Assembly (NCBI RefSeq): GCF_030397665.1
Contig: NZ_JAPUBT010000007.1
Coordinates: forward strand, 62,001-126,000
DNA from: Janthinobacterium sp. SUN073
GTDB taxonomy: Bacteria; Pseudomonadota; Gammaproteobacteria; Burkholderiales; Burkholderiaceae_D
Length of the DNA stretch: 64,000 nucleotides
Reading direction: 5' to 3'
Below, piece after piece: positions 1,744 to 12,842 of the stretch (position 1 is the stretch's first letter; each line of letters starts with the position of its first letter). The notes beneath the pieces were generated by a model. It was given only the letters and a program-made list of their open reading frames with translations. It searched no databases and was not told the DNA's origin. Made by a program: the position numbers and the translations under genes.

Positions 1744-1806
1744 GGGAGTCACGGTTGGAGGATCAGCCGACAGTGTAAGCGATCGCCACGCGATCCACCA
1801 GCGACG

Positions 1807-2178
1807 CTAGGAGTGCTCGGGCGGGGCGCGCCGCACGGATTGCAGCTGGCAGTGCGCCGCCTGCAGTGCGTCCTGGATGGCGTCAAGCGCCAGTTGCGGC
1901 TGCGCCGCGCCGCACATGAAGATGTCGACGGCGGCAAAGCTGCATTCCGGCCAGGTGTGGATGGAAATGTGCGATTCGGCCAGCAGCACCACGCCGGTGA
2001 CGCCCTGGCCTGCGCCAAAGCTGTGGAAATGGCTGTGCAGCACCTGCGCGCCGGCCGTAGTGGCCGCTGCGCGCAGCAGGCGTTCGAGCGCGGCGCAGTC
2101 GCGCAGGCGTTCGGGTGCGATGCCGGACAAGTCGGCCAGCAGATGGATGCCCAGGGGCAGATGCGGTGTGGCGGTCAT
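1807..2178 (-). CDS. speD: S-adenosylmethionine decarboxylase proenzyme (prokaryotic class 1B)
   Basis: A 123-residue pyruvoyl enzyme that decarboxylates S-adenosylmethionine to dcSAM, the aminopropyl donor for spermidine synthesis. The processing site is in AESHISIHTWPE, with Ser69 as the expected self-cleavage and pyruvoyl residue. His74 and Cys89 (in DIFMCG) keep the spacing of the catalytic Ser-His-Cys set known from the Thermotoga enzyme. Its length is normal for the short bacterial class. It starts three bases after the stop of the upstream miniprotein, so it is translated as the fifth gene of the DUF350-SPFH-DUF4178-miniprotein-speD run. A matching aminopropyltransferase is encoded divergently at 5337. 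Confidence 0.95.
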   Translation of the reverse strand: MTATPHLPLGIHLLADLSGIAPERLRDCAALERLLRAAATTAGAQVLHSHFHSFGAGQGVTGVVLLAESHISIHTWPECSFAAVDIFMCGAAQPQLALDAIQDALQAAHCQLQSVRRAPPEHS

Positions 2179-2180
2179 GC

Positions 2181-2351
2181 TTATTTGTGGCTGCCGCCAC
2201 TGGAGCCGCCACCATAGCTGCCGCCGCCGCTGCCCGTGCGCGAACTCCAGCTGCTGCCGCTGCTGCTGCCGGCTACCTTGAACATGCGCACCCAGTTGGC
2301 GGCCGTGACGGAAAACGTCACCATCAAGGCATAGATCACGTATTTACTCAT
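2181..2351 (-). CDS. Gly/Ser-tailed single-pass membrane miniprotein
   Basis: A 56-residue protein with one hydrophobic segment (about residues 4-20), a short basic-aromatic stretch (WVRMFK), then a tail from residue 28 made almost entirely of Gly, Ser and Tyr, ending in GGSHK. The start is set by an ATGA overlap with the stop of the DUF4178 gene (ATG at 2351, TGA at 2350); there is no independent Shine-Dalgarno, so translational coupling is likely. The stop lies two bases before speD. The tail resembles those of TPM/YgcG-type membrane proteins, but the protein is too short to assign to a family. It looks like an accessory subunit of the locus. Confidence 0.8.
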   Translation of the reverse strand: MSKYVIYALMVTFSVTAANWVRMFKVAGSSSGSSWSSRTGSGGGSYGGGSSGGSHK

Positions 2352-3811
2352 GGAGGATTCTTTGCATTCTTGTCGAGGAAAACGGCGGGCAGGAACAGCG
2401 CCAGGCAGCCCAGCAAACTCCACATCAAGGTGCTGGAGAACGAGACAAACATGGGGATCGCATTCAAGACCAGCACGATGACGATGAAGACCTTGGCGAT
2501 ACCGCGGTGACTCAGTTTAATATTTTGTACCTTGGCAGCGCCATGGAAGGCGGCGCCGAACCAGGCGGCCATCTGGTCATAGGCGACGGGTACGGAGCGC
2601 GACCAGGTCATTTCCTCGCCGGTGAGCTCCGTCGCCAGTTTTGTCTGACCCTGCTCGAATTCGTGGACGCGCGTGCTGTCGCCGACGGCCACCTTCCAGT
2701 TGAAGGCGCCCGCCGCATACACCACCTGCGAGCCGTAGTCATACAATTTGCGATAGGTGGCGCCATCGAGCGTGCAGGTAGCGGCGTCCAGCGAGGCCCA
2801 GTTGGGCCAGTTCGGCAGCACGTTCGAGCGCGACCAGCCGTCGTCCGTCTCCACCAGCCAGAAGAAGCCGGCGCGCGCGTTGTACAGCAGGTATTCGTTC
2901 CACTCGCTGCCTTCATCGTCGGCGCGGCGCATCATGCCGATCACCGTGAAGTCGGCATTGCTGATCTTCGCGCTGGCGCCCAGCTCCAGCGTGATGTCGG
3001 CATTGTCGTGCACCTGCTTGCCGATGGCCAGCACCTGTGCTTCCGGGCCGCTGGCGTCGAGCTGCGCGTGGCAGGCGGGACACACCAGCTGCGCCGCCGC
3101 GCCGGGGACGTACTTGATGCCGCTGCCGCAGGAGGGGCAGTCGAGCGCATCGAGCTTGCCACGGTACTTGCCGGCGCTTCTGGCGATGGCGTCGTCATCG
3201 CGCAGCAGCTGGCACTGCAAGCCATCCAGGGTGACGGCAACGCCCTGGTAGACGACGGGTTGCGGGCCGTCCGTGTAGTCGAGCGTGACAAAGCTGGCGT
3301 AGTTGCGGAAGTCCGCCACCTGGATGCGCCAGCCGGCGCCCACCTTGAACGGCAATTCACCCTGGCCGGCGATGCATTCGGCATTGCGGATCTCGGCCGC
3401 CGTGTACGGCTCGCCGCAGAGCGTATAGCGCTTGCCCGGCGCCAGCTCGCCAAAGACGGGCAGGGTATCTTGCGTGCTGCGCTCACGCGTCAGCGTGTAC
3501 AGGCCGGACGAGTCGCCCAGCCAGGCCGTGCTGGCGTCGTCGAACAGCAGATACCACTCGTTCCATGTGCCGGCGCTGTAGCGCTGCTGGATGCGCCCGA
3601 CGACGGTGAAGTGCAGGCCGTCGTGTACGCCGGCCGTGCCGATCTGGATCGGTGTATAGTCTTCCAGGACGGTCGACATCTTGCCCACGTCCCTGACGGA
3701 ATCGGCGTCCTTGAGGATGGTGCTGTGGCAGTACTCGCACACGGCGAGCACGGAAGCATGCGAGCGGAAATGAACTTCCGCGCCGCAGCTGGGACAGGAA
3801 ACAGTTTGCAT
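2348..3811 (-). CDS. DUF4178 protein with two zinc ribbons and a C-terminal membrane hairpin
   Basis: A 487-residue protein with a duplicated layout. Zinc ribbon 1 has Cys6, Cys9, Cys25 and Cys28, followed by a DUF4178 domain (about 55-195). Zinc ribbon 2 has Cys225, Cys228, Cys244 and Cys247, followed by a second DUF4178 domain (about 275-410). The signature G-x-WNE-W/Y-LL is seen in both copies (near 83 and 304). Two hydrophobic segments near 438-457 and 462-480 form a C-terminal hairpin, so the ribbons probably face the cytoplasm. The DUF4178 family recurs beside SPFH, DUF350, SpeD and spermidine synthase genes, but its biochemical role is not established. It ends in an ATGA overlap with the miniprotein gene. 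Confidence 0.85.
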   Translation of the reverse strand: MQTVSCPSCGAEVHFRSHASVLAVCEYCHSTILKDADSVRDVGKMSTVLEDYTPIQIGTAGVHDGLHFTVVGRIQQRYSAGTWNEWYLLFDDASTAWLGDSSGLYTLTRERSTQDTLPVFGELAPGKRYTLCGEPYTAAEIRNAECIAGQGELPFKVGAGWRIQVADFRNYASFVTLDYTDGPQPVVYQGVAVTLDGLQCQLLRDDDAIARSAGKYRGKLDALDCPSCGSGIKYVPGAAAQLVCPACHAQLDASGPEAQVLAIGKQVHDNADITLELGASAKISNADFTVIGMMRRADDEGSEWNEYLLYNARAGFFWLVETDDGWSRSNVLPNWPNWASLDAATCTLDGATYRKLYDYGSQVVYAAGAFNWKVAVGDSTRVHEFEQGQTKLATELTGEEMTWSRSVPVAYDQMAAWFGAAFHGAAKVQNIKLSHRGIAKVFIVIVLVLNAIPMFVSFSSTLMWSLLGCLALFLPAVFLDKNAKNPP

Positions 3812-3821
3812 GCAGTCGCGC

Positions 3822-4859
3822 TTAACCGATCAGTTTTTTCAGCAGTTCAGCCTTGGCGCCGTCGTAGTCGGCCGGCGAAATGAGACCCTTGTCGAGCAGA
3901 CCCTTGAGCTTTTCCAGGCGTGCCTCGATCGGTTCTTCCGCAGGGGCCGGTGGTGCCGCAGGTGCGGCCGGAGCCGGCTGCTGCAGCGCACCGCCCATGC
4001 TTTGCGCCATCACCTGGCCGATCGACAGCCCGGCGCCGAGACCGGCGCCGATACCGGCCATGCCGCCTTCGTTCTGCGCCGCCAGCGGGATCGCGTTGGC
4101 GACCTGGAATTTGGTGTAGCCGCTCATCTTGTCGGCGCCCAGCCCGCCCTTCATGCCGGCCGAGATGCGCTCGTCGAGCGCCGCCTGCAATTCCTCGGGC
4201 AGGCTGATGCTGGCCACGTTGAATTCATCGAGGCCCACGCCATAGCGGGCAAACGCCTGCGCCAGGCCATCCTTGACCTCTTGCGCCATCAGCGCCTGGT
4301 TGGCCGCCATGTCGAGGAAGGGAACGTTCGCGCCGCCCAGCGAGCTGGCCATGCTCGACATCAGAATGCCGCGCAATTGATCTTCCACCTCGTCGCGCGT
4401 ATAGACTTCGCGCGTGCCGCTGATCTCGGTGAAGAAGGTGCGGGCGTCGGCGATGCGGTACGAGTACATGCCGAAGGCGCGCACGCGGATCATGTCGAAA
4501 TCCTTGTCGCGGATGGTGATCGGCTGCGGCGTGCCCCACTTGCGGCCCGTCTGTACGCGGGTGCTGAAGTAATACACATCCGACTTGAAGGGCGAGTCGA
4601 ACAGCTTGTCCCAGTTTTTCAGGTTGGTCAGCAGCGGTAAAGTCTGCGTCGTCAGCTTGTGCGTGCCGGGACCGAAGACGTCGGCGATCTTGCCTTCATT
4701 GACGAAGACGGCGACCTGCGATTCGCGCACATTCAGGATGGCGCCGTTCTGGATCTCGAAATCCTGCATGGGGAAGCGCCAGGCCAGTACGCCTTCCGTT
4801 TCTTCGTTCCACTGCAGTACGTCGATAAACTGCTTCTTGATAAAGCTGCCGAGGCTCAT
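3822..4859 (-). CDS. SPFH-domain protein with C-terminal SHOCT motif (virion-core-like)
   Basis: A 345-residue protein. The N-terminal 250 residues form an SPFH/Band-7-type domain of the 'virion core protein-like' branch: an early QWNEET segment, then GPGTHKLTT, then a long helical region. A Gly/Ala-rich hydrophobic patch (near 255-280) and an Ala/Pro linker lead to a short helical hairpin with the SHOCT pattern (LEKLKGLLDKGLISPADYD, near 315-333). SPFH proteins usually form membrane microdomain scaffolds, and SHOCT is an oligomerisation motif. The ATG at 4859 has AAGGA nine bases upstream; longer upstream open frame is rejected because it overlaps the DUF350 gene. It ends ten bases before the DUF4178 gene. 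Confidence 0.88.
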   Translation of the reverse strand: MSLGSFIKKQFIDVLQWNEETEGVLAWRFPMQDFEIQNGAILNVRESQVAVFVNEGKIADVFGPGTHKLTTQTLPLLTNLKNWDKLFDSPFKSDVYYFSTRVQTGRKWGTPQPITIRDKDFDMIRVRAFGMYSYRIADARTFFTEISGTREVYTRDEVEDQLRGILMSSMASSLGGANVPFLDMAANQALMAQEVKDGLAQAFARYGVGLDEFNVASISLPEELQAALDERISAGMKGGLGADKMSGYTKFQVANAIPLAAQNEGGMAGIGAGLGAGLSIGQVMAQSMGGALQQPAPAAPAAPPAPAEEPIEARLEKLKGLLDKGLISPADYDGAKAELLKKLIG

Positions 4860-4890
4860 GATGAATGTCCTTGAATAAGATAAAACGGTG

Positions 4891-5277
4891 TCAGGAAATG
4901 CAGGCGGCGTTGATGGCGCCGATCGACAGGGAAATGGCGCCCAGCAAGCCGCCGAAGGCGCTGTTGTTCGATTCGATCTGGTCCTTCGACATGCGCAGCA
5001 AGCGCGTGGTGACCACATAGGCGAGCAACTGCACCACCATGGCGCCGAAGGCCCAGGCGAAGAATTGCTGATAGTCGGCCGTGTGCATCAGGGACGAGGC
5101 GATGGTGGCGGAAAATCCCAGCAGCGCGCCGCCCAGCGACAGCGCCGCCGCCTGGTTGCCCTGGCGAATCAGCAGCACTTCGTTGTAGGGCGTAACGCGC
5201 GTGTAGATGATAAAAAATACAATCAACAGCCCGGCGGCCAGTAAAAGATGGATCAGATAGTTTAGGATGGCGGGCAC
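4891..5277 (-). CDS. DUF350 (YjfL-like) four-helix membrane protein
   Basis: A 128-residue integral membrane protein with four hydrophobic segments (near 5-25, 44-64, 72-90 and 106-126), as expected of DUF350/YjfL. The conserved-looking features are EVxLIRQGNQAAALSLGG between helices 1 and 2 and a small-residue-rich last helix. The start is a GTG at 5277 with AGGAA a few bases upstream. It is the first gene of the minus-strand polyamine-locus operon. E. coli yjfL also lies in an operon with a PspA-family protein and a glutathionylspermidine-synthase-like ligase, so a link between DUF350 and polyamine chemistry appears in two unrelated contexts. Molecular function is unknown. Confidence 0.9.
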   Translation of the reverse strand: MPAILNYLIHLLLAAGLLIVFFIIYTRVTPYNEVLLIRQGNQAAALSLGGALLGFSATIASSLMHTADYQQFFAWAFGAMVVQLLAYVVTTRLLRMSKDQIESNNSAFGGLLGAISLSIGAINAACIS

Positions 5278-5336
5278 GGCTTTCCTCGCAATGAGTATTT
5301 GATAACGTCAACGCATATTAGAACAAAAAAAGTCCC
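5278..5336. promoter_or_regulatory. Divergent promoter interval of the polyamine-SPFH locus
   Basis: The 59-base gap between the divergent DUF350 and aminopropyltransferase genes is AT-rich compared with its surroundings and must carry both promoters unless transcription enters from further away. On the minus strand TTGTTC and TATCAA are 16 bases apart and could be a weak -35/-10 pair. No clear plus-strand promoter or operator is visible. The plus gene has only an A-rich leader and no good Shine-Dalgarno. Confidence 0.4.
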
Positions 5337-6848
5337 ATGAACAAAAAAATTCTGATCTTGTCCGTCTTCGTGGTCGCCTCCTGCGGCCTCGCGTATGAAC
5401 TGATCGCCGGCGCCATGTCCAGCTACCTGCTCGGCGACTCCATCCTGCAGTTTTCCACCATCATCGGCTGCTACCTGTTCGCCATGGGTGTGGGTGCTCA
5501 CTTTTCGAAGTATGTAAAGGACGACGACGTGCTCTCGCGCTTCGTCGACATCGAGCTGGCCGTGGGCTTGATCGGTGGCCTGTCGGCCGCCATCCTGTTC
5601 ATGACGTTTTCGTGGATGGCCGCGCCATTTCGCACCTTATTGTATGTGATGGTGTTCCTGATCGGCGCACTGGTCGGCATGGAAGTGCCGCTGGTGATGC
5701 GCGCTCTCAATTCGCGCCAGACGGAATTTAGTGAACTTGTCAGCCGTGTGCTCACCTTCGATTACCTGGGTGCGCTGGCCGTCTCCCTGCTGTTCCCGCT
5801 GGTACTGTCGCCGTATCTGGGACTGGTGCGCACGGGCTTTTTGTTCGGCATGCTGAATGTTGGCGTGGGCCTGTGGACGATTTACGTGTTCCGCGCGGAG
5901 CTGAAGAACCTCACGGGGCGCTTCCTGCGCGCCTGCGTCGTGATGCTGGTGCTGATCGCCGGCTTTGCCATGTCGGACCGTATGGTGGCCTGGGGCGAAC
6001 ATGGCCTGTTCGGTGACCAGATCGTGTATTCCACCACCACGCCCTACCAGCGCCTGGTGATCACGCGCTGGAAGGACGATACGCGGCTGTACATCAACGG
6101 CAACCTGCAGTTTTCCTCACGCGACGAGTACCGTTACCACGAGGCGCTGGTACACCCCGTGCTGGAAGCGCTGCCGTGGGCGCGCCGCGTGCTGGTGCTG
6201 GGCGGCGGCGATGGCCTGGCGCTGCGCGAAATCCTGCGTTATCCACAGATCGAGCACGTCACCGTGGTGGACCTGGACCCGGCCATGACGGCCGCGTTTA
6301 CCACGCGCCCGGAACTGGCAAAGCTGAATAACAACTCGTTCTCCGACAAGCGCGTCACCGTCGTCAATGCCGATGCCGCCGTCTGGCTGCGCAATAACGG
6401 CGACATGTTCGACGCGGCCATCGTCGACTTCCCCGATCCGTCCAGCTTTGCGCTCGGCAAACTGTATTCGGTGCCCTTCTACGACCTGGTGAAAAAACAC
6501 CTGGCGGTCAAGGGCTTGATGGTGGTGCAATCGACTTCGCCCTTTTTTGCCCCGCACGCCTACTGGACCATCAATTCGACCCTGCGCGAAGTGGGCATGC
6601 GCACCTGGCCCTACCACGCCTATGTACCCTCGTTCGGCGAATGGGGTTTTATCCTCGCTTCACCCCAGCTCGACTACACACCGCCGACGACATACCGCCT
6701 GCCGATGCGCTACCTGAACGCGGACACCACGCGCGAGATGTTCATCTTCCCGCCCGACATGCAGCCGCTGCCGATGGCGCCGAATCGCCTGAATACCCAG
6801 TCGCTCGTGCATGAATTCGAGCAGGACTGGAACCGGGTGATTCGCTGA
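5337..6848 (+). CDS. Membrane-anchored polyamine aminopropyltransferase (spermidine-synthase-like)
   Basis: A 503-residue fusion. The first 210 residues hold about seven or eight transmembrane segments; residues 225-490 are a spermidine-synthase-type domain. The SAM/dcSAM-binding loop is GGGDG (289-293), with the acidic strand end VDLDP (311-315). DFPDP (364-368) takes the place of the DSTDP motif carrying the catalytic aspartate in soluble SpeE, and YRYHE (265-269) stands where SpeE has its substrate Tyr/His region. Family knowledge: transfer of an aminopropyl group from dcSAM to an amine. The dcSAM source is probably SpeD at 1807. Substrate is unknown; the Ser-Thr to Phe-Pro change and the membrane domain argue against plain putrescine as a safe assumption. 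Confidence 0.88.
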   Translation: MNKKILILSVFVVASCGLAYELIAGAMSSYLLGDSILQFSTIIGCYLFAMGVGAHFSKYVKDDDVLSRFVDIELAVGLIGGLSAAILFMTFSWMAAPFRTLLYVMVFLIGALVGMEVPLVMRALNSRQTEFSELVSRVLTFDYLGALAVSLLFPLVLSPYLGLVRTGFLFGMLNVGVGLWTIYVFRAELKNLTGRFLRACVVMLVLIAGFAMSDRMVAWGEHGLFGDQIVYSTTTPYQRLVITRWKDDTRLYINGNLQFSSRDEYRYHEALVHPVLEALPWARRVLVLGGGDGLALREILRYPQIEHVTVVDLDPAMTAAFTTRPELAKLNNNSFSDKRVTVVNADAAVWLRNNGDMFDAAIVDFPDPSSFALGKLYSVPFYDLVKKHLAVKGLMVVQSTSPFFAPHAYWTINSTLREVGMRTWPYHAYVPSFGEWGFILASPQLDYTPPTTYRLPMRYLNADTTREMFIFPPDMQPLPMAPNRLNTQSLVHEFEQDWNRVIR

Positions 6849-8479
6849 TGCGGCGCCGTTCCTTCATGCTGTGGGCTGCCGGTGGCACGGCCGCGGCCGC
6901 GGCTGGCATCGGCAGTATCGCCGCGTATTTGCGCTGGCAGGAAATCACGCCCAAGGTGTTGTATCCAGGCCGCAGCGAGGGGCACTATTTGCGCACGCTG
7001 CTGCGCGAGCGCACGGCGCTGCCGCCACCTTCACGCACCTTGAGCACCGACGTGGCCATCCTCGGCTCCGGCATCGCCGGCCTGACGGCCGCCTGGCGCC
7101 TGAACAAGCTGGGGCACCAGGATTTCCTGATGATCGACGGTCCGCAGCCTTATGGCAACGCGGCCGGCGGCCACTTCGGCGACCTGGCTTATCCGACCGG
7201 TGGCCATTACTTGCCGCTGCCTTCGCCCGAATCGACCCATGTGCGCGAGATCCTGTTCGACCTGGGGATTATCCAGCGCGATCCGCAGGCGGAAAAGCCG
7301 ACTTACGACGAGCGCTATATCCTGCACGCGCCGGAAGAACGATTGCTGTTCAACGGTCACTGGCAGGATGGCTTCATTCCCACGGAAGGCGTGCCGCCTG
7401 CGGAACTGGCGCAGCACCAGCGCTTCTTTGCGCAGGTGGCGCAGCTGCGCCAGGCGCGCGGCAATGACGGCAAGCGCGTGTTTGTCTTTCCTACCGTGGA
7501 GTCGTCGCATGATCCCGCCTGGCAGGCGCTCGACACCATCACCTTGAAGCAGTGGATGGAACGCGAAGGCTATACCTCGCCTACCCTGCACTGGTATTTG
7601 AACTACTGCTGCCGCGACGACTACGGCACGCGCTACGACCAGGTCTCGGCCTGGGCCGGCCTGCATTACTACTGCAGCCGCTGGGGACAGGCGGCGAATG
7701 CCGGCAATGGCGCCTGGCTGACCTGGCCCGGTGGCATGCAACCGGTGGCCACGGCCATGGAGCAGGCCTCGGGTGTCCAACGTCATGCGGGCACGGTGGT
7801 TTCCGTACAGACGACGGATCAGGGCGTGGAAGCGCTGTGCCTGGAACTGGTCGACGGCCAGCCACGCACCTATTTGGTCCGCGCACGCAAGGCCATCTGC
7901 GCCATGCCCTTGTATGTGGCGGCGCGTGTGGTGCCGGACATTGCCAGCTACGGCTTTGACGCGAAGCTGCACACGCCCGCCTATGCGCCATGGATGGTGG
8001 CGAACTTTTTACTGAAACGCTTTCCCGACGAACTGCCGCATGCGCCCCTGTGCTGGGACAACGTGGTGTACCAGGAACCGGGCCTCGGCTACGTCGTCTC
8101 GACCCACCAGGATATCCGTGTGCGTCCGCCCGAGAAAACCGTCTTCAGCGCCTACGTGGCCCTGTCCGACCGCACGCCGCAGCAAGCGCGCAAATGGTTA
8201 GATGTGGCCACGCCCGAGCAATTGCTGGCGCTGGCCAGCGTCGACCTGAAAACGGCGTATGGACGCGATTTTGCCAGCTGCGTCGAGCGCGTCGACATCA
8301 CCGTGCGCGGCCATGCCATGGCCGCACCGTTACCGGGATTTCGCAGCAATGCGGGCTTGAAGGCGCTGCGCGAGCACGATGGCGCCATCCTGTTCGCGCA
8401 TGCCGATTTGTCGGGCTTTTCCGTGTTCGAGGAAGCGGCGTGGTGGGGGGATAGGGCCGCTCGCCTGGCGGCAAAATAA
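6848..8479 (+). CDS. Tat-exported FAD-dependent amine-oxidase-like oxidoreductase
   Basis: A 543-residue flavoprotein. The N-terminus has a twin-arginine signal (MRRRSFML followed by a Gly/Ala hydrophobic stretch to about residue 28). The FAD-binding Rossmann motif is GSGIAGLTAA (73-82), and a C-terminal segment around GAILFAHADLSG matches the second FAD contact of amine-oxidase-type enzymes. The start overlaps the aminopropyltransferase stop by one base (TGATG), so the two are coupled. Inference: the folded enzyme is exported with its flavin and oxidises an amine made by, or related to, the product of the preceding gene. The substrate cannot be read from sequence. A plain NAD(P)-independent dehydrogenase is the alternative. 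Confidence 0.82.
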   Translation: MRRRSFMLWAAGGTAAAAAGIGSIAAYLRWQEITPKVLYPGRSEGHYLRTLLRERTALPPPSRTLSTDVAILGSGIAGLTAAWRLNKLGHQDFLMIDGPQPYGNAAGGHFGDLAYPTGGHYLPLPSPESTHVREILFDLGIIQRDPQAEKPTYDERYILHAPEERLLFNGHWQDGFIPTEGVPPAELAQHQRFFAQVAQLRQARGNDGKRVFVFPTVESSHDPAWQALDTITLKQWMEREGYTSPTLHWYLNYCCRDDYGTRYDQVSAWAGLHYYCSRWGQAANAGNGAWLTWPGGMQPVATAMEQASGVQRHAGTVVSVQTTDQGVEALCLELVDGQPRTYLVRARKAICAMPLYVAARVVPDIASYGFDAKLHTPAYAPWMVANFLLKRFPDELPHAPLCWDNVVYQEPGLGYVVSTHQDIRVRPPEKTVFSAYVALSDRTPQQARKWLDVATPEQLLALASVDLKTAYGRDFASCVERVDITVRGHAMAAPLPGFRSNAGLKALREHDGAILFAHADLSGFSVFEEAAWWGDRAARLAAK

Positions 8480-8503
8480 AAAGGCCGGCGCGAACGCCGG
8501 CCT
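8472..8503 (-). terminator. Rho-independent terminator of the mmsB operon
   Basis: On the minus strand a perfect 9-bp stem AGGCCGGCG/CGCCGGCCT closes a TTCG loop (8482-8503) and runs into TTTTTATTTTG. This is a textbook terminator 25 bases after mmsB. Read on the plus strand the hairpin follows the flavin oxidase but has no T-tract, so it is at best weakly bidirectional. Confidence 0.9.
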
Positions 8504-8527
8504 GAGCCCCCTAAGGCTCGAACCGGT

Positions 8528-9745
8528 CTACTTGTTCTTGTTGATCACGTCGATGAACACGGCCGCCAGCAGCACCAGGCCCTTGATCACCTGCTGGTAA
8601 TCGATGCCGATGCCCATGATGGACATGCCGTTGTTCATTACGCCCATGATGAAGGCGCCGATGACGGCCCCCATCACCTTGCCAACGCCGCCCGAGGCCG
8701 AGGCGCCGCCGATGAAGCAGGCGGCGATCACGTCCAGTTCAAAACCCGTACCGGCTTTCGGCGTGGCCGTGTTCAGGCGCGCCGCGAAGATCAGGCCGGC
8801 CAGCGCGGCCAGCATGCCCATGTTGACGAAGGTGTAGAAGCTGACCCGTTCCGTCTTGATGCCGGACAGGCGCGCCGCCTTCTCGTTGCCGCCCACAGCA
8901 TACACGCGGCGGCCCAGCACGGTGCGGTTGGTAATGAAGGTGTAGGCGACGATCAGCAGCGACATCACGGCCAGCACGTTGGGAAAACCGCGGTACGACG
9001 CCAGCAGGTAGCTGAAATACACCATCACGGCGGCGAAGATGCTATTTTTCAGCAGGAAGAAGGCGCGCGGCTCGTTTTCCATGCCGTGCTTCAGTTGCTT
9101 GGCGCGGCTGCGCAGCGAAGTGATAATCAGCGCCGCGGCGGCGATCACGCCCAGCAGCAATGACAGGCCGCGCAGGTTTTCACCGCCGAACGGGTCGGGC
9201 AAAAAGCCCGAGCTGAGCATCTGGAAGCCTTCCGGGAAGGGACCGACCGACTGGCCTGCCAGCAGGGCCAGGGTCAGGCCCTTGAACACCAGCATGCCGG
9301 CCAGGGTGACGATGAAGGACGGGATTTTAAAGAAGGCGACAAAATAGCCTTGCGCGCCGCCGATGACGGCGCCGGCCAGCAGGCAGATGATGCTGGCGGC
9401 GATAAAGTTCATCTCGTAGTTGACGATCAGGACGGCCGCCAGCGCGCCGACGAAGCCGACCACGGAGCCGACGGACAAATCGATATGGCCGGCCACGATG
9501 ACCATCAGCATGCCCAGCGCCATGATGACGATGTAGCTGTTTTGCAGCACCAGATTGGTCAGGTTCAGCGGCTGCATCAGGGTGCCATCGGTCATGTACT
9601 GGAAAAAGCCCATGATGACGATCAGGGAGAGCAGCATGCCGTAGTCGCGCATATTGTTCTTCAAAAAGCCGGCATAGCTTTTCGCTTGCGGCGCGGCCGC
9701 TGGCGCTGCTGCTGCCGGCGCGCCTGCTGTCAGTTTATTGTCCAT
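8528..9745 (-). CDS. mmsB: Multiple-monosaccharide ABC transporter, permease MmsB/GguB
   Basis: A 405-residue inner-membrane permease of the ribose/xylose (CUT2) family with about ten hydrophobic segments. An Ala/Pro-rich N-terminus precedes the first helix. Family signatures are [16 protein letters not shown] near residue 85 and the EAA-like [18 protein letters not shown] near residue 340. It imports sugars with MmsA and ChvE. It overlaps mmsA by 11 bases and is followed by a strong terminator, so it is the last gene of chvE-mmsA-mmsB. Confidence 0.93.
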
Positions 9746-11276
9746 TGTTTTCTCCGTGTGTAACGATCGCGCGCATGATGCGCTCCTGCGATGCTTCTGC
9801 CGCGCTCAGTTCTGCCGCGAAGCGGCCTTCGTTCATGACATAGATCCGGTCGCACATGCCCAGCAATTCCGGCATTTCCGAGGAAATCATGATGATGCAT
9901 TTGCCTTCGGCCGCCAGCTCGCTGATGATGCTGTAGATCTCGTACTTGGCGCCCACGTCGATGCCGCGGCTCGGTTCATCGAGGATCAGGATGTCGGGGC
10001 GCGAAAACAGCCACTTCGCCAGCACCACTTTCTGCTGGTTGCCGCCGGACAGATTGACTACCTTTTGCGCCACGCTCGAGCAACGGGTCTTGAGCTTGCG
10101 GCGGAACTCCTCGGCCACGCTGAATTCACGCTGCTCATCGATCACCATGTGCTTCGAAATCGCATCCAGGTTGGCCAGGCTGGTGTTCTTCTGGATGTCT
10201 TCCTCGAGGATCAGGCCCAGGCCCTTGCGGTCTTCCGTGACATATGCGAGGCCATGGGCGATCGCCTTGCCGATGCTGCTGACGTCGATTTCCTGGCCAT
10301 TCTTGAGCACCGTGCCGCTGATGCGCTGGCCGTAGGCGCGTCCGAATATGCTCATCGCCAGTTCCGTGCGCCCTGAGCCCATCAAGCCGGCGATGCCGAT
10401 GATCTCGCCCTTTTTGGCGTGCAGGTTGATGCCCTTGATGACGGGGCGGTCGGCATGCTCGGGATGGAAGACGCGCCAGTCGCGCACCTCGAAAATGGTC
10501 TCGCCGATGCTGGGTGTGCGCGGAGGATAGCGGTCGGCCATTTCGCGCCCGACCATTTTTTCGATGATGCGGTCTTCGCTGACGGGCTCCGTGCGGCAGT
10601 CGAAACTGTCGACCGTGTTCCCGTCGCGCAGCACAGTGATGGCATCGGCCACCCGCGAGATTTCATTGAGCTTGTGCGAGATCAGGATCGAGGCGATGCC
10701 CTGGGCTTTCAGGCCCAGCAGCAGGTCGAGCAGGGCCGCGCTGTCGCTCTCGTTCAGGCTGGCCGTCGGCTCGTCGAGGATCAGCAGCTTGACGTCCTTG
10801 CACAGCGCCTTGGCGATCTCGATCAGCTGCTGCTTGCCCACGCCCAGGTTGGTGATCAGGGTGTCCGGGGACTCTTTCAGGCCGACTTTGTGCAGCAGTT
10901 CGCGCGTCTTCGCTTGCGCGTATTCCCAGTCGATGACGCCCATGCGGGCCGGCTCGTTGCCGAGGAAGATATTCTCGGCGATCGACAGCTGGGGCACCAG
11001 CGCCAGTTCCTGGTGGATGATGATGATGCCGATTTCTTCGCTGTCCTTGATGCCGCGAAAGTGCCGCGTCTGGCCCAGGTAATCGATGTCGCCCGTATAG
11101 CTGCCATGGCCGTAGACGCCGCTCAGCACCTTCATCAGGGTCGATTTGCCTGCACCGTTTTCGCCGACGATGGCGTGGATCTCGCCGCTGCGCACGCGCA
11201 GGTTGACATTGTCGAGCGCCACGACGCCCGGGAATGTTTTGCGTATCCCGCGCATTTCCAGGATAGTGTTCGTCAT
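9735..11276 (-). CDS. mmsA: Multiple-monosaccharide ABC transporter, ATP-binding protein MmsA/GguA
   Basis: A 513-residue double ATPase, the usual length for CUT2 sugar importers. The N-terminal cassette has Walker [10 protein letters not shown] (38-46), a diverged signature [15 protein letters not shown] and Walker [11 protein letters not shown]. The C-terminal cassette has a degenerate P-loop ([10 protein letters not shown], near 294) but an intact [15 protein letters not shown] and [11 protein letters not shown]. This asymmetry is normal for the family. It energises uptake through MmsB of sugars bound by ChvE. A 113-base gap with a hairpin separates it from chvE. Confidence 0.94.
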
Positions 11277-11351
11277 ATAACCTCTCTGGCACGGCCGCGC
11301 TGGTCGGCATCGGTCGTGCGGCAGTCTTGTTCTGGATCGTGCATGAAGCGA

Positions 11352-11374
11352 AAGGCCCGGCAGCGCCGGGCCTT
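11352..11374 (-). terminator. Intra-operon hairpin between chvE and mmsA
   Basis: A perfect 10-bp inverted repeat AAGGCCCGGC/GCCGGGCCTT around a 3-base centre lies 15 bases after the chvE stop. On the minus strand only a short TTTCGCTT follows, so it is a weak terminator or an mRNA-stabilising hairpin. Such a position fits the common excess of binding protein over ATPase and permease. Confidence 0.6.
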
Positions 11375-11389
11375 CAGTACCGTGGATGC

Positions 11390-12466
11390 TTATTTCACTT
11401 GCGCTTCCGTGTAGTAGCCGCTGCCGGTGACGAGCACCTGTTTCCAGTTCGCCTTGTCGACGGTGACCGGTTTCAGCAGGTAGGACGGCACCACCTTGAC
11501 GCCGTTGTTGTAGGTCTTGGTATCGTTGACGGTCGGTACCTTGCCCGACATCATGGCGTCGACCATGTTCGCCGTCACCTTGGCCAGTTCGCGCGTGTCC
11601 TTGAACACGGTCGATGCCTGTTCGCCGCGGATGATCGATTTCACCGACGGGATTTCCGCATCCTGGCCCGTCACGACGGGAAACGGTTGTTTCGGCGTGC
11701 CGTAGCCGACACCCTTGAGCGAGGACAGGATGCCGATGCTCAAGCCGTCATACGGTGACAGCACCGCATCGACCCGCGCATTGCCATAGTAGGCGCTGAG
11801 CAGGTTGTCCATGCGTGCTTGCGCCACGGCGCCATCCCAGCGCAGGGTGGCCACTTTTTCCATGCCCATCTGCTTCGAGCGCACCACCAGCTTGCCGCTG
11901 TCAATGTACGGTTTCAGGACCGACAGCGCGCCGTTGTAGAAGAAGTGCGCGTTGTTGTCGTCGGCCGAGCCGCCGAACAATTCGATATTGAACGGGCCTT
12001 TGCCTTCCTTGAGTTTCAGCGCCGATTCGATATAGCCCGCTTGCAGTACGCCGACCTGGAAGTTGTCGAAGGTGGCGTAGTAATCGATGTTTTTCGTGCC
12101 GCGGATCAGACGGTCATACGAGATGACCTTGATACCCTTGTCGGCCGCCTTTTGCAGCACGTTCGACAAGGTGGTGCCGTCGATGGCGGCAATCACCAGC
12201 ACCTTGGCGCCCTTGGTGATCATGTTTTCCACCTGCGCCAGCTGGTTCGGGATATCGTCGTCGGCAAACTGCAAGTCCGTCTTGTAGCCGCGCTCCTTGA
12301 ATACCTTGACCATGTTGTCGCCATCGGCGATCCAGCGCATGGACGACTTGGTCGGCATCGAGATGCCGATCGCGCCCTTGTCGGCGGCACTAGCCACAGG
12401 CATTACCGCCATGCCGGAGATGGCCAGCGCCAGGCTCGCGGTCAGCATTTTCATTGTTGTTTTCAT
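11390..12466 (-). CDS. chvE: ChvE-type multiple-monosaccharide-binding periplasmic protein
   Basis: A 358-residue secreted binding protein. A signal peptide ([18 protein letters not shown], cleaved after a VASA-A site near 27) precedes a type I periplasmic binding fold with [17 protein letters not shown] and the sugar-contact segment [14 protein letters not shown]. ChvE-like proteins bind arabinose, xylose, galactose, glucose and related sugars; which ones apply here cannot be read from sequence. The ATG at 12466 has GGAGA seven bases upstream and gives a normal signal peptide; the longer open frame upstream is rejected for that reason. First gene of chvE-mmsA-mmsB, divergent from the sugar-acid operon. 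Confidence 0.93.
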
Positions 12467-12842
12467 TTCAGGTCTCCACCGTCTTCGATAGTTGAATGTG
12501 CCAGGGCCGTCGTCCCACCGGGCGGGCTCCGTGCGGATGGCCGATTGCAGGCCACGGCTGATACTAGTTTGTCCATCCATCCCTCACCAATCACTTTTTT
12601 CGCATAGCCGATATCCAAAACGGTATCGATACGCCAATTGATGCAATGCGCCATGTCGCCCCTTTCCGCATGCTGACAGGGCGGAAACGGGGGCCGGGCG
12701 GCGGCTTTTTTTGGTGCGCTGCAATACCAATAATCATCATTCAATTTGGTGATTTTCGTAATTGCGGCGACACAGGCCGGCGCGCAGAATCGGTCCGGAC
12801 TTGAAGACCGGCCATCCCGTCACGACCTTTTGAAAGCTTGCC
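12467..12842. promoter_or_regulatory. Divergent control region between chvE and the xyl operon
   Basis: This 376-base gap holds no convincing gene. It contains the only long AT-rich stretch in the area (about 12725-12765), probably the promoter for the rightward operon. At 12621-12633 is CGGTATCGATACG, with a perfect 10-bp palindrome GTATCGATAC centred on CG, as in many LacI/GalR-family operators. A T7 run follows a GC-rich stretch near 12700, but I see no clean stem for a terminator there. A separate ACCAA/TTGGT pair flanks 12727-12751. Confidence 0.55.

Follow-up and report, generated by a model that had tools for sequence, protein, structure and literature searches.

Which acceptor does an aminopropyltransferase use when it is fused to a membrane domain and encoded among scaffold proteins, and is its product ordinary spermidine? 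The question is raised by a seven-gene locus at positions 1807-8479 of a 64,000-nucleotide stretch of Janthinobacterium sp. SUN073 (contig NZ_JAPUBT010000007.1, positions 62,001 to 126,000), referred to here as the window. The locus encodes the S-adenosylmethionine (SAM) decarboxylase SpeD, a membrane-fused aminopropyltransferase, a flavin amine oxidase, a DUF4178 protein, an SPFH protein, a DUF350 membrane protein and a miniprotein with a C-terminal lysine. Many bacteria reportedly keep a SAM decarboxylase (AdoMetDC) together with a membrane-fused spermidine synthase (SpdSyn) that seemingly does not make spermidine. The MFS-SpdSyn fusion loci that Li, Kurihara, Kim, Liang and Michael are said to have described in 2019 share AdoMetDC, a fused SpdSyn and DUF350 neighbours with the present locus; they are reportedly without spermidine function, and to our knowledge the acceptor was not named. 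Our analysis suggests that the enzyme of this conserved locus decorates a protein tail and does not make ordinary spermidine.

Results

The candidate acceptor is a miniprotein of 56 amino acids (aa) encoded on the minus strand (2181..2351), with a hydrophobic N-terminal segment at residues 5-21 by hydropathy (2289..2339), a Gly/Ser-rich tail and the ending -GGSHK, of which the His-Lys codons occupy 2184..2189. Profile searches gave no family match for it. Its counterparts were read in 95 stretches picked by SpeD or enzyme similarity, comprising the best 80 of 580 relatives in the enzyme scan, all fairly close, and 15 further stretches; four contigs are present twice (L008/L030, L009/L025, L013/L032 and L015/L031). 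In all 89 stretches with a DUF4178 open reading frame (ORF), that frame is directly followed by one of 48-75 residues with a hydrophobic N-terminus, the last 30 residues being about 70% Gly and Ser. Every one of the 89 ends in -His-Lys (79/79 distinct sequences), and in 75 of the 79 distinct miniproteins the terminal lysine is the sole lysine of the last 30 residues. The lysine is encoded by AAG in 51 copies and by AAA in 38, the histidine by CAC in 80 and by CAT in 9; over all 89, the last two codons show zero amino-acid changes with synonymous sites saturated. The ratio of nonsynonymous to synonymous differences per site (pN/pS) was 0.076 for codons 2-24 and 0.25 for the last eight codons among ten genus copies, and 0.22 (codons 2-20) and 0 (last eight codons) among eight Duganella copies. 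Since the stretches come mostly from Oxalobacteraceae and relatives, with four contigs counted twice, they do not amount to 89 independent cases. Whereas the earlier note counted this miniprotein with the scaffold components, to which it ascribed no known reaction, the lysine that invariably closes the chain puts it first among the acceptor candidates.

Similar tails occur at distant loci. A DUF4178 search of phylum samples matched 13 of 200 genomes, and the 12 stretches besides the window were read; a search with the enzyme matched 83 of 398 phylum genomes and gave 45 fused-type loci of at least 190 bits, all of which were read. Matches below 190 bits were taken as soluble SpeE and left out, as was a partial 132-bit match in genome G041. 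Stretch L126, with DUF4178 on a contig that lacks the enzyme, was also left out (the enzyme of that genome lies on another contig, L162), and L151, which is the contig of L088, was removed from the distant tails and from the oxidase table. A fused enzyme is carried by 11 of the 12 DUF4178-chosen stretches, and all 11 have a Lys-ended tail. In L120, L125 and L127 the tail ends in -HK and continues the C-terminus of DUF4178; in L118, L119 and L121-L124 it is a separate small protein, and in L128 and L129 a longer one, with a lipobox in L129. Across the 45 fused-enzyme loci, a Gly/Ser-rich, apparently exported, Lys-ended tail is present in 41 (14/14 loci already covered by the preceding surveys, L151 included, and 27/31 new). 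The new loci carry separate -HK tails (L150, L155), tails fused to DUF4178 (L152, L154, L158, L161), miniproteins ending in -RVK or -RIK (L156, L159, L165, L166), proteins ending in -GGK or -SGK (L160, L162-L164) and longer proteins ending in -RGK or -GGK, mostly with a lipobox-like motif (L167, L168, L170, L172-L181). On a tree of 57 enzymes the tail types correspond to deep groups, and fusion to DUF4178 needs three changes: most simply, the fusion would have arisen twice, with one absence in addition, the alternative being one fusion with later splits. The tail and DUF4178 probably belong to one complex.

Some of the small tail ORFs had been found with a filter for terminal lysine; nine stretches were redone by position without it and gave Lys-ended tails in 9/9 (L151 included), and the lipoprotein-type tails were found by position with no filter. 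As a background rate, 84 of 1882 long ORFs in the loci examined end in lysine. One identical, unfiltered pass over both groups gave a Lys-ended best candidate in 12 of the 32 stretches with a fused enzyme and in none of the 20 with soluble SpeE. The remaining fused-enzyme stretches gave another candidate in 3, short and judged spurious, and none in 17, and the control stretches gave candidates in 5, none of them Lys-ended. DUF350, DUF4178, SPFH and the oxidase were without a match in the 20 soluble-SpeE stretches, 11 of which have a SpeD match (7 above 70 bits).

A counterpart with a different tail end is found in E. coli. The earlier note's tie between DUF350 and the yjfIJKLMC operon is real, and the enzymes of yjfIJKLMC, which includes DUF350, and of ygiBC (YjfC and YgiC) are peptide-spermidine ligases by RefSeq name. 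Taken together, these systems resemble the present locus in having DUF350, a PspA homologue, a lipoprotein with a Gly/Ser-rich tail and an enzyme that transfers polyamine; they differ in having an ATP-grasp ligase where the present locus has an aminopropyltransferase, and a -GG tail end in place of -K. YgiB (L130:3745-4416) and YjfM (L131:10388-11026) have lipobox-like motifs, Gly/Ser-rich tails and -Gly-Gly ends, and are candidate acceptors of these ligases. A sample of DUF1190, found in 14 of 150 genomes, supplied 14 further proteins, 10 of which end in -GG and none in lysine, with a YgiC-like ligase in 12 of the 14 stretches. No ATP-grasp ligase was found in the locus of the window, nor in 44 DUF4178 or fused-enzyme stretches searched with YgiC and YjfC. 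As ATP-grasp ligases require a carboxylate and aminopropyltransferases an amine, the -GG and -K tail ends fit their respective enzymes.

SpeD (1807..2178, minus strand, 123 aa) is a class 1b AdoMet decarboxylase that matches PF02675 above its cut-off, at 123.6 bits, and TIGR03330 at 125.1, over a cut-off of 75.65. E68-S69, W76, E78 and C89 are invariant in the 8 sequences aligned, and we take the Ser of the conserved E-S and C89 to be the processing serine and the catalytic cysteine. In two SpeD copies from PspA-type or related loci (L119:11550-11921 and L121:11805-12164), serine stands where six other aligned copies have histidine (H74, window numbering).

The fused enzyme (5337..6848, plus strand) is of the PRK03612 type, with a hydrophobic part of approximately residues 1-213 (5337-5975) followed by a SpeE-like catalytic domain of approximately residues 214-503. 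It matches PF01564/PRK03612 with the acid of the GxG(D/E)G motif and the Asp pair, and D292, D364 and D367 (the Asp that binds decarboxylated SAM, or dcSAM, and the Asp pair) are invariant in 37/37 close and 43/43 distant homologues. By these matches it is a member of the polyamine aminopropyltransferase family. The host genome also has an Orn/Lys/Arg decarboxylase-type gene. A second decarboxylase of the host, of the Orn/DAP type (L019:1147-2520), stands beside an acyl-CoA ligase-like ORF in what looks by eye like an exosortase-type cluster.

Hydropathy places seven segments before the catalytic domain, and a surplus of Lys and Arg lies on the N-terminal side in 37/37 close homologues. Together these predict a catalytic domain that should face the outside of the inner membrane. 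A crude count over 39 distant enzymes gave seven segments in 21, all with the N-terminus inside, and 6, 8 or 9 segments in the other 18, with a mixed or reversed balance; on these counts the domain may face outside. The tail should also be outside, given that some tails have a lipobox and that the miniproteins start with a short, positively charged segment. In three fusions examined, one or three hydrophobic segments lie between the DUF4178 domains and the tail.

The proposal that the families are linked holds beyond chance in the survey of 95 stretches, in which the six larger genes are together nearly always (aminopropyltransferase 94, oxidase 94, SPFH 93, DUF350 92, DUF4178 89 and SpeD 88). 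Flanking genes were seen in 24 and 16 of the 95, some stretches being too short to reach the flanks. Missing members fall in the short L055, L081, L084, L086 and L098, in the SpeD-only L004, in the rearranged L005 (SpeD elsewhere, DUF350 half-size) and in L097 (no SpeD within 19.5 kb). Among the best 80 of 580 relatives, the closest enzymes, up to 99% identical, are from Janthinobacterium. In a set of 41 genomes, 24 have both SpeD and a strong SpeE-like gene (at least 96 bits) and 17 have neither; of the 24, G026 has them on different contigs. The locus carries the sole PF02675 match, the sole strong SpeE and the sole DUF350 match of the host genome. Among 25 genus members, 5 lack both SpeD and the enzyme, one of these five being only 82% complete. 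In one of the five, G012, block 1803-12711 of the window is missing between aligned flanks, where approximately 1.8 kb of different sequence stands instead (L148:5526-7301), so that the genes are absent together there. As a contrast from ordinary spermidine synthesis, G038, one of the 24 and a genome of the same taxonomic order, has SpeD and SpeE matches in one open frame of 410 aa (C1:1227540-1228694).

The oxidase gene (6848..8479, plus strand, 543 aa) has a twin-arginine signal at its start and matches Amino_oxidase weakly, at 27.8 bits over a cut-off of 19.8. The twin-arginine motif is present in 62 of the 64 copies with a located Rossmann motif (of 94 copies). No match was found among solved structures by phmmer, and in the 60 of 206 profile matches to solved structures that were listed, the best stretches all belong to the N-terminal dinucleotide-binding part, which says nothing about the substrate. 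The oxidase and an -HK tail stand together in 98 loci, and an -HK tail without oxidase only in L127 (none elsewhere in its genome). Tails of other types have no oxidase in the stretch in 28 cases, 11 of which were checked genome-wide. A possible frameshift affects the oxidase gene at L009:2067-3730, on the contig shared with L025, where the coding sequence runs over two frames. SPFH recurs in some distant loci; in L119 and L129, PspA was confirmed together with a CesT-type or DUF2170 gene.

The gene layout agrees with the earlier description of seven genes in two divergent, overlapping units: all seven ORFs and their families were confirmed, and the SPFH start was moved from the longest-ORF start at 5018 to the ATG at 4859. 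Five minus-strand genes (DUF350, SPFH, DUF4178, miniprotein and SpeD, in this order) and two on the plus strand (aminopropyltransferase, oxidase) diverge from a common 59-bp spacer (5278..5336). The stop of DUF4178 overlaps the start of the miniprotein in an ATGA, the aminopropyltransferase and oxidase overlap by 1 base, and the other gaps are 2, 10 and 31 bases. The DUF4178 protein (2348..3811, minus strand, 487 aa) has two DUF4178 domains, Cys pairs that resemble a zinc ribbon (Pfam ribbons below cut-off) and two C-terminal hydrophobic segments. The SPFH (Band_7_1) protein (3822..4859, minus strand, 345 aa) has a C-terminal SHOCT domain, and the DUF350 protein of the YjfL family (4891..5277, minus strand, 128 aa) has four hydrophobic segments. 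In several loci the full-length DUF350 is replaced by a half-size form of 70-74 aa that covers only the first half of the family (L005:9758-9973, L118:8394-8618, L120:8977-9195, L122:8364-8576). In G028, extra ORFs lie among DUF350, SPFH and DUF4178 (L003:7174-7506 and 8812-9890), one of them repeat-rich and bactofilin-like by eye. A spacer block near the aminopropyltransferase end recurs among the genus copies listed; a promoter scan was dropped, with 1 match against 1.3 expected. Between the oxidase gene and a convergent Ggu-type sugar transporter operon, a minus-strand GC-rich stem and T run (8482-8503) are possibly the terminator of that operon. A reading of the locus as a defence system was rejected: the sole strong PADLOC match, mad2 (58.6 bits), spans the SpeE-like domain alone, and the others are weak.

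Discussion

We tentatively favour, at slightly less than even confidence, the reading that SpeD, the seven-transmembrane (7TM) enzyme, the terminal lysine, the oxidase and the scaffold together form a system for aminopropylation of an envelope protein tail. SpeD would supply dcSAM, and the 7TM SpeE-like enzyme would use it to aminopropylate a small exported Gly/Ser-rich tail protein at the epsilon-amine of its C-terminal lysine, giving N-epsilon-(3-aminopropyl)lysine. The four-carbon chain of lysine resembles putrescine, which, with the invariant dcSAM-binding and catalytic acids, makes the terminal lysine a natural acceptor. As the tail and the catalytic domain are both predicted from the charge bias to lie outside, delivery of dcSAM may be a further task of the 7TM domain. 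A later step would fall to the oxidase exported by the twin-arginine (Tat) pathway, which would oxidise the group or else take it off in the manner of polyamine oxidases, with release of 3-aminopropanal and H2O2. The site would be assembled by SPFH, DUF350 and DUF4178, with PspA and a CesT-like protein replacing SPFH in some other clades, and the physiological purpose may be a response to membrane stress.

Several observations weigh against this reading. No tail was found within approximately 6 kb at 4 of the 45 loci, namely L153, where the oxidase is present, L157, which a contig end truncates, L169 and L171, and the control pass was of low sensitivity (12/32). Four of the 14 DUF1190 tails do not end in -GG. 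Fixed C-termini are found in other proteins of the locus too (aminopropyltransferase Arg in 88/88, DUF350 Ser in 84/87 and SPFH Gly in 83/88 distinct sequences), so that the lysine end may have a structural reason; because of this shared fixity, a fixed C-terminus was not used alone as proof. The oxidase is confined to one clade of the enzyme tree, hence its co-occurrence with -HK tails may be a single event and is not counted as independent evidence. In the distant enzymes, 18 of 39 were counted as having 6, 8 or 9 segments, with a mixed or reversed charge balance, for which a missed or split segment would account. Lastly, we know of no precedent in bacteria for a periplasmic enzyme that uses dcSAM.

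The fixed C-termini of the other locus proteins also speak for another explanation, in which the lysine tail serves to dock or assemble SPFH/PspA, DUF4178 or DUF350 and the enzyme acts on a small molecule. Seven of the 38 distinct distant tails are fused to DUF4178, so the two are probably parts of one complex, which would suit such a role. Docking leaves it less clear why tails that differ in length and anchor keep the lysine end across a very deeply branching enzyme tree, and most ligase-linked tails end in -GG, so that the terminus follows the chemistry of the enzyme. We regard docking as unlikely. The enzyme might instead aminopropylate a lipid or other small membrane amine that the oxidase then oxidises, an idea that draws on the fusion to a membrane domain, on the SPFH and DUF350 partners and on other substrates suggested in the text of a published study (PMC11237479). 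It would leave the invariant lysine tail unexplained, and the recurring gene set, as scanned for seven families and read by eye in the stretches, includes no lipid-related gene; we consider a lipid acceptor decidedly unlikely. The earlier note's interpretation is upheld in part: the families are linked, the tie to E. coli holds, and the evidence favours some acceptor over putrescine, but we found nothing that points to a lipid-like membrane amine.

The least probable of these explanations, in our estimate a poor one, is an ordinary spermidine pathway that happens to be membrane-bound, with SpeD and SpeE using putrescine of the host. That the sole SpeD and sole strong SpeE of the genome are in the locus, that an Orn/Lys/Arg decarboxylase-type gene is present and that the catalytic acids are kept would all agree with it. 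Against it stand the 5 of 25 genus members without both genes and the absence of the whole block in one of them, G012, and it accounts for neither the tail, the oxidase nor the scaffold. Furthermore, the fused SpdSyn enzymes treated by Li and colleagues reportedly failed to complement an E. coli speE mutant.

The theme of the locus is already published. The text of Ravi 2024 (PMC11237479) reports the gene association and the idea of an acceptor that is not a polyamine or putrescine, and its polyamine operons include 7TM-SpdSyn, DUF350 and DUF4178, all present here. A lipoprotein described there (with the Ctha_1186 domain) may equal the lipoprotein-type tails found by us. That study differs in that its CesT/Tir-PspA dyad is missing from the present locus, where SPFH-SHOCT stands in its place; a replacement of this kind is described there for a related operon. 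The oxidase here carries a Tat signal, and the C-terminal lysine of the tail goes unmentioned in the text of that paper, figures and supplements apart. In the open literature, most subscription papers, figures and supplements apart, we found no description of the Lys-ended tail, of its -GG counterpart or of a bacterial aminopropyllysine.

Partial parallels are available for single steps. The fungal NHMT, as its published text has it, is a 7TM SpdSyn-like protein of the endoplasmic reticulum and acts on secreted proteins, whose N-terminal His it methylates (PMC10349129). It shares with our proposal the 7TM and SpdSyn-like catalytic domains and the modification of a terminal residue of secreted proteins, and differs in its methyl donor (SAM), in having Ile instead of the dcSAM-binding acid, in its N-terminal His target and in its fungal origin. 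In diatom silaffins, according to the text of PMC4557024, lysine side chains of exported proteins bear aminopropyl units, as proposed here, although many internal lysines are involved, the function concerns silica and the organism is a eukaryote. In B. subtilis the SPFH protein YdjI recruits PspA and affects membrane fluidity (PMC8581546); this system likewise combines SPFH with PspA and membrane partners, and, unlike here, polyamine enzymes go unnamed in the corresponding passages of that paper.

Conclusions

A single invariant acceptor candidate makes the acceptor question of this locus directly testable. A wider proposal, which we put forward as speculative and rather improbable as a whole, is that periplasmic aminopropyllysine, as the last residue of a dedicated exported tail protein, is a new bacterial modification, written by the 7TM enzyme, which would move dcSAM across the membrane, and erased by the oxidase; together with the ligase/-GG systems, it would belong to a class of polyamine-capped envelope tails that tune, or report to, the SPFH/PspA stress machinery. 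If true, tail aminopropylation would add a protein modification to those of bacteria and give DUF350, DUF4178 and the SPFH partners a job. It would also tie polyamine chemistry to the phage-shock response, and would predict YgiB and YjfM as the acceptors of the E. coli peptide-spermidine ligases.

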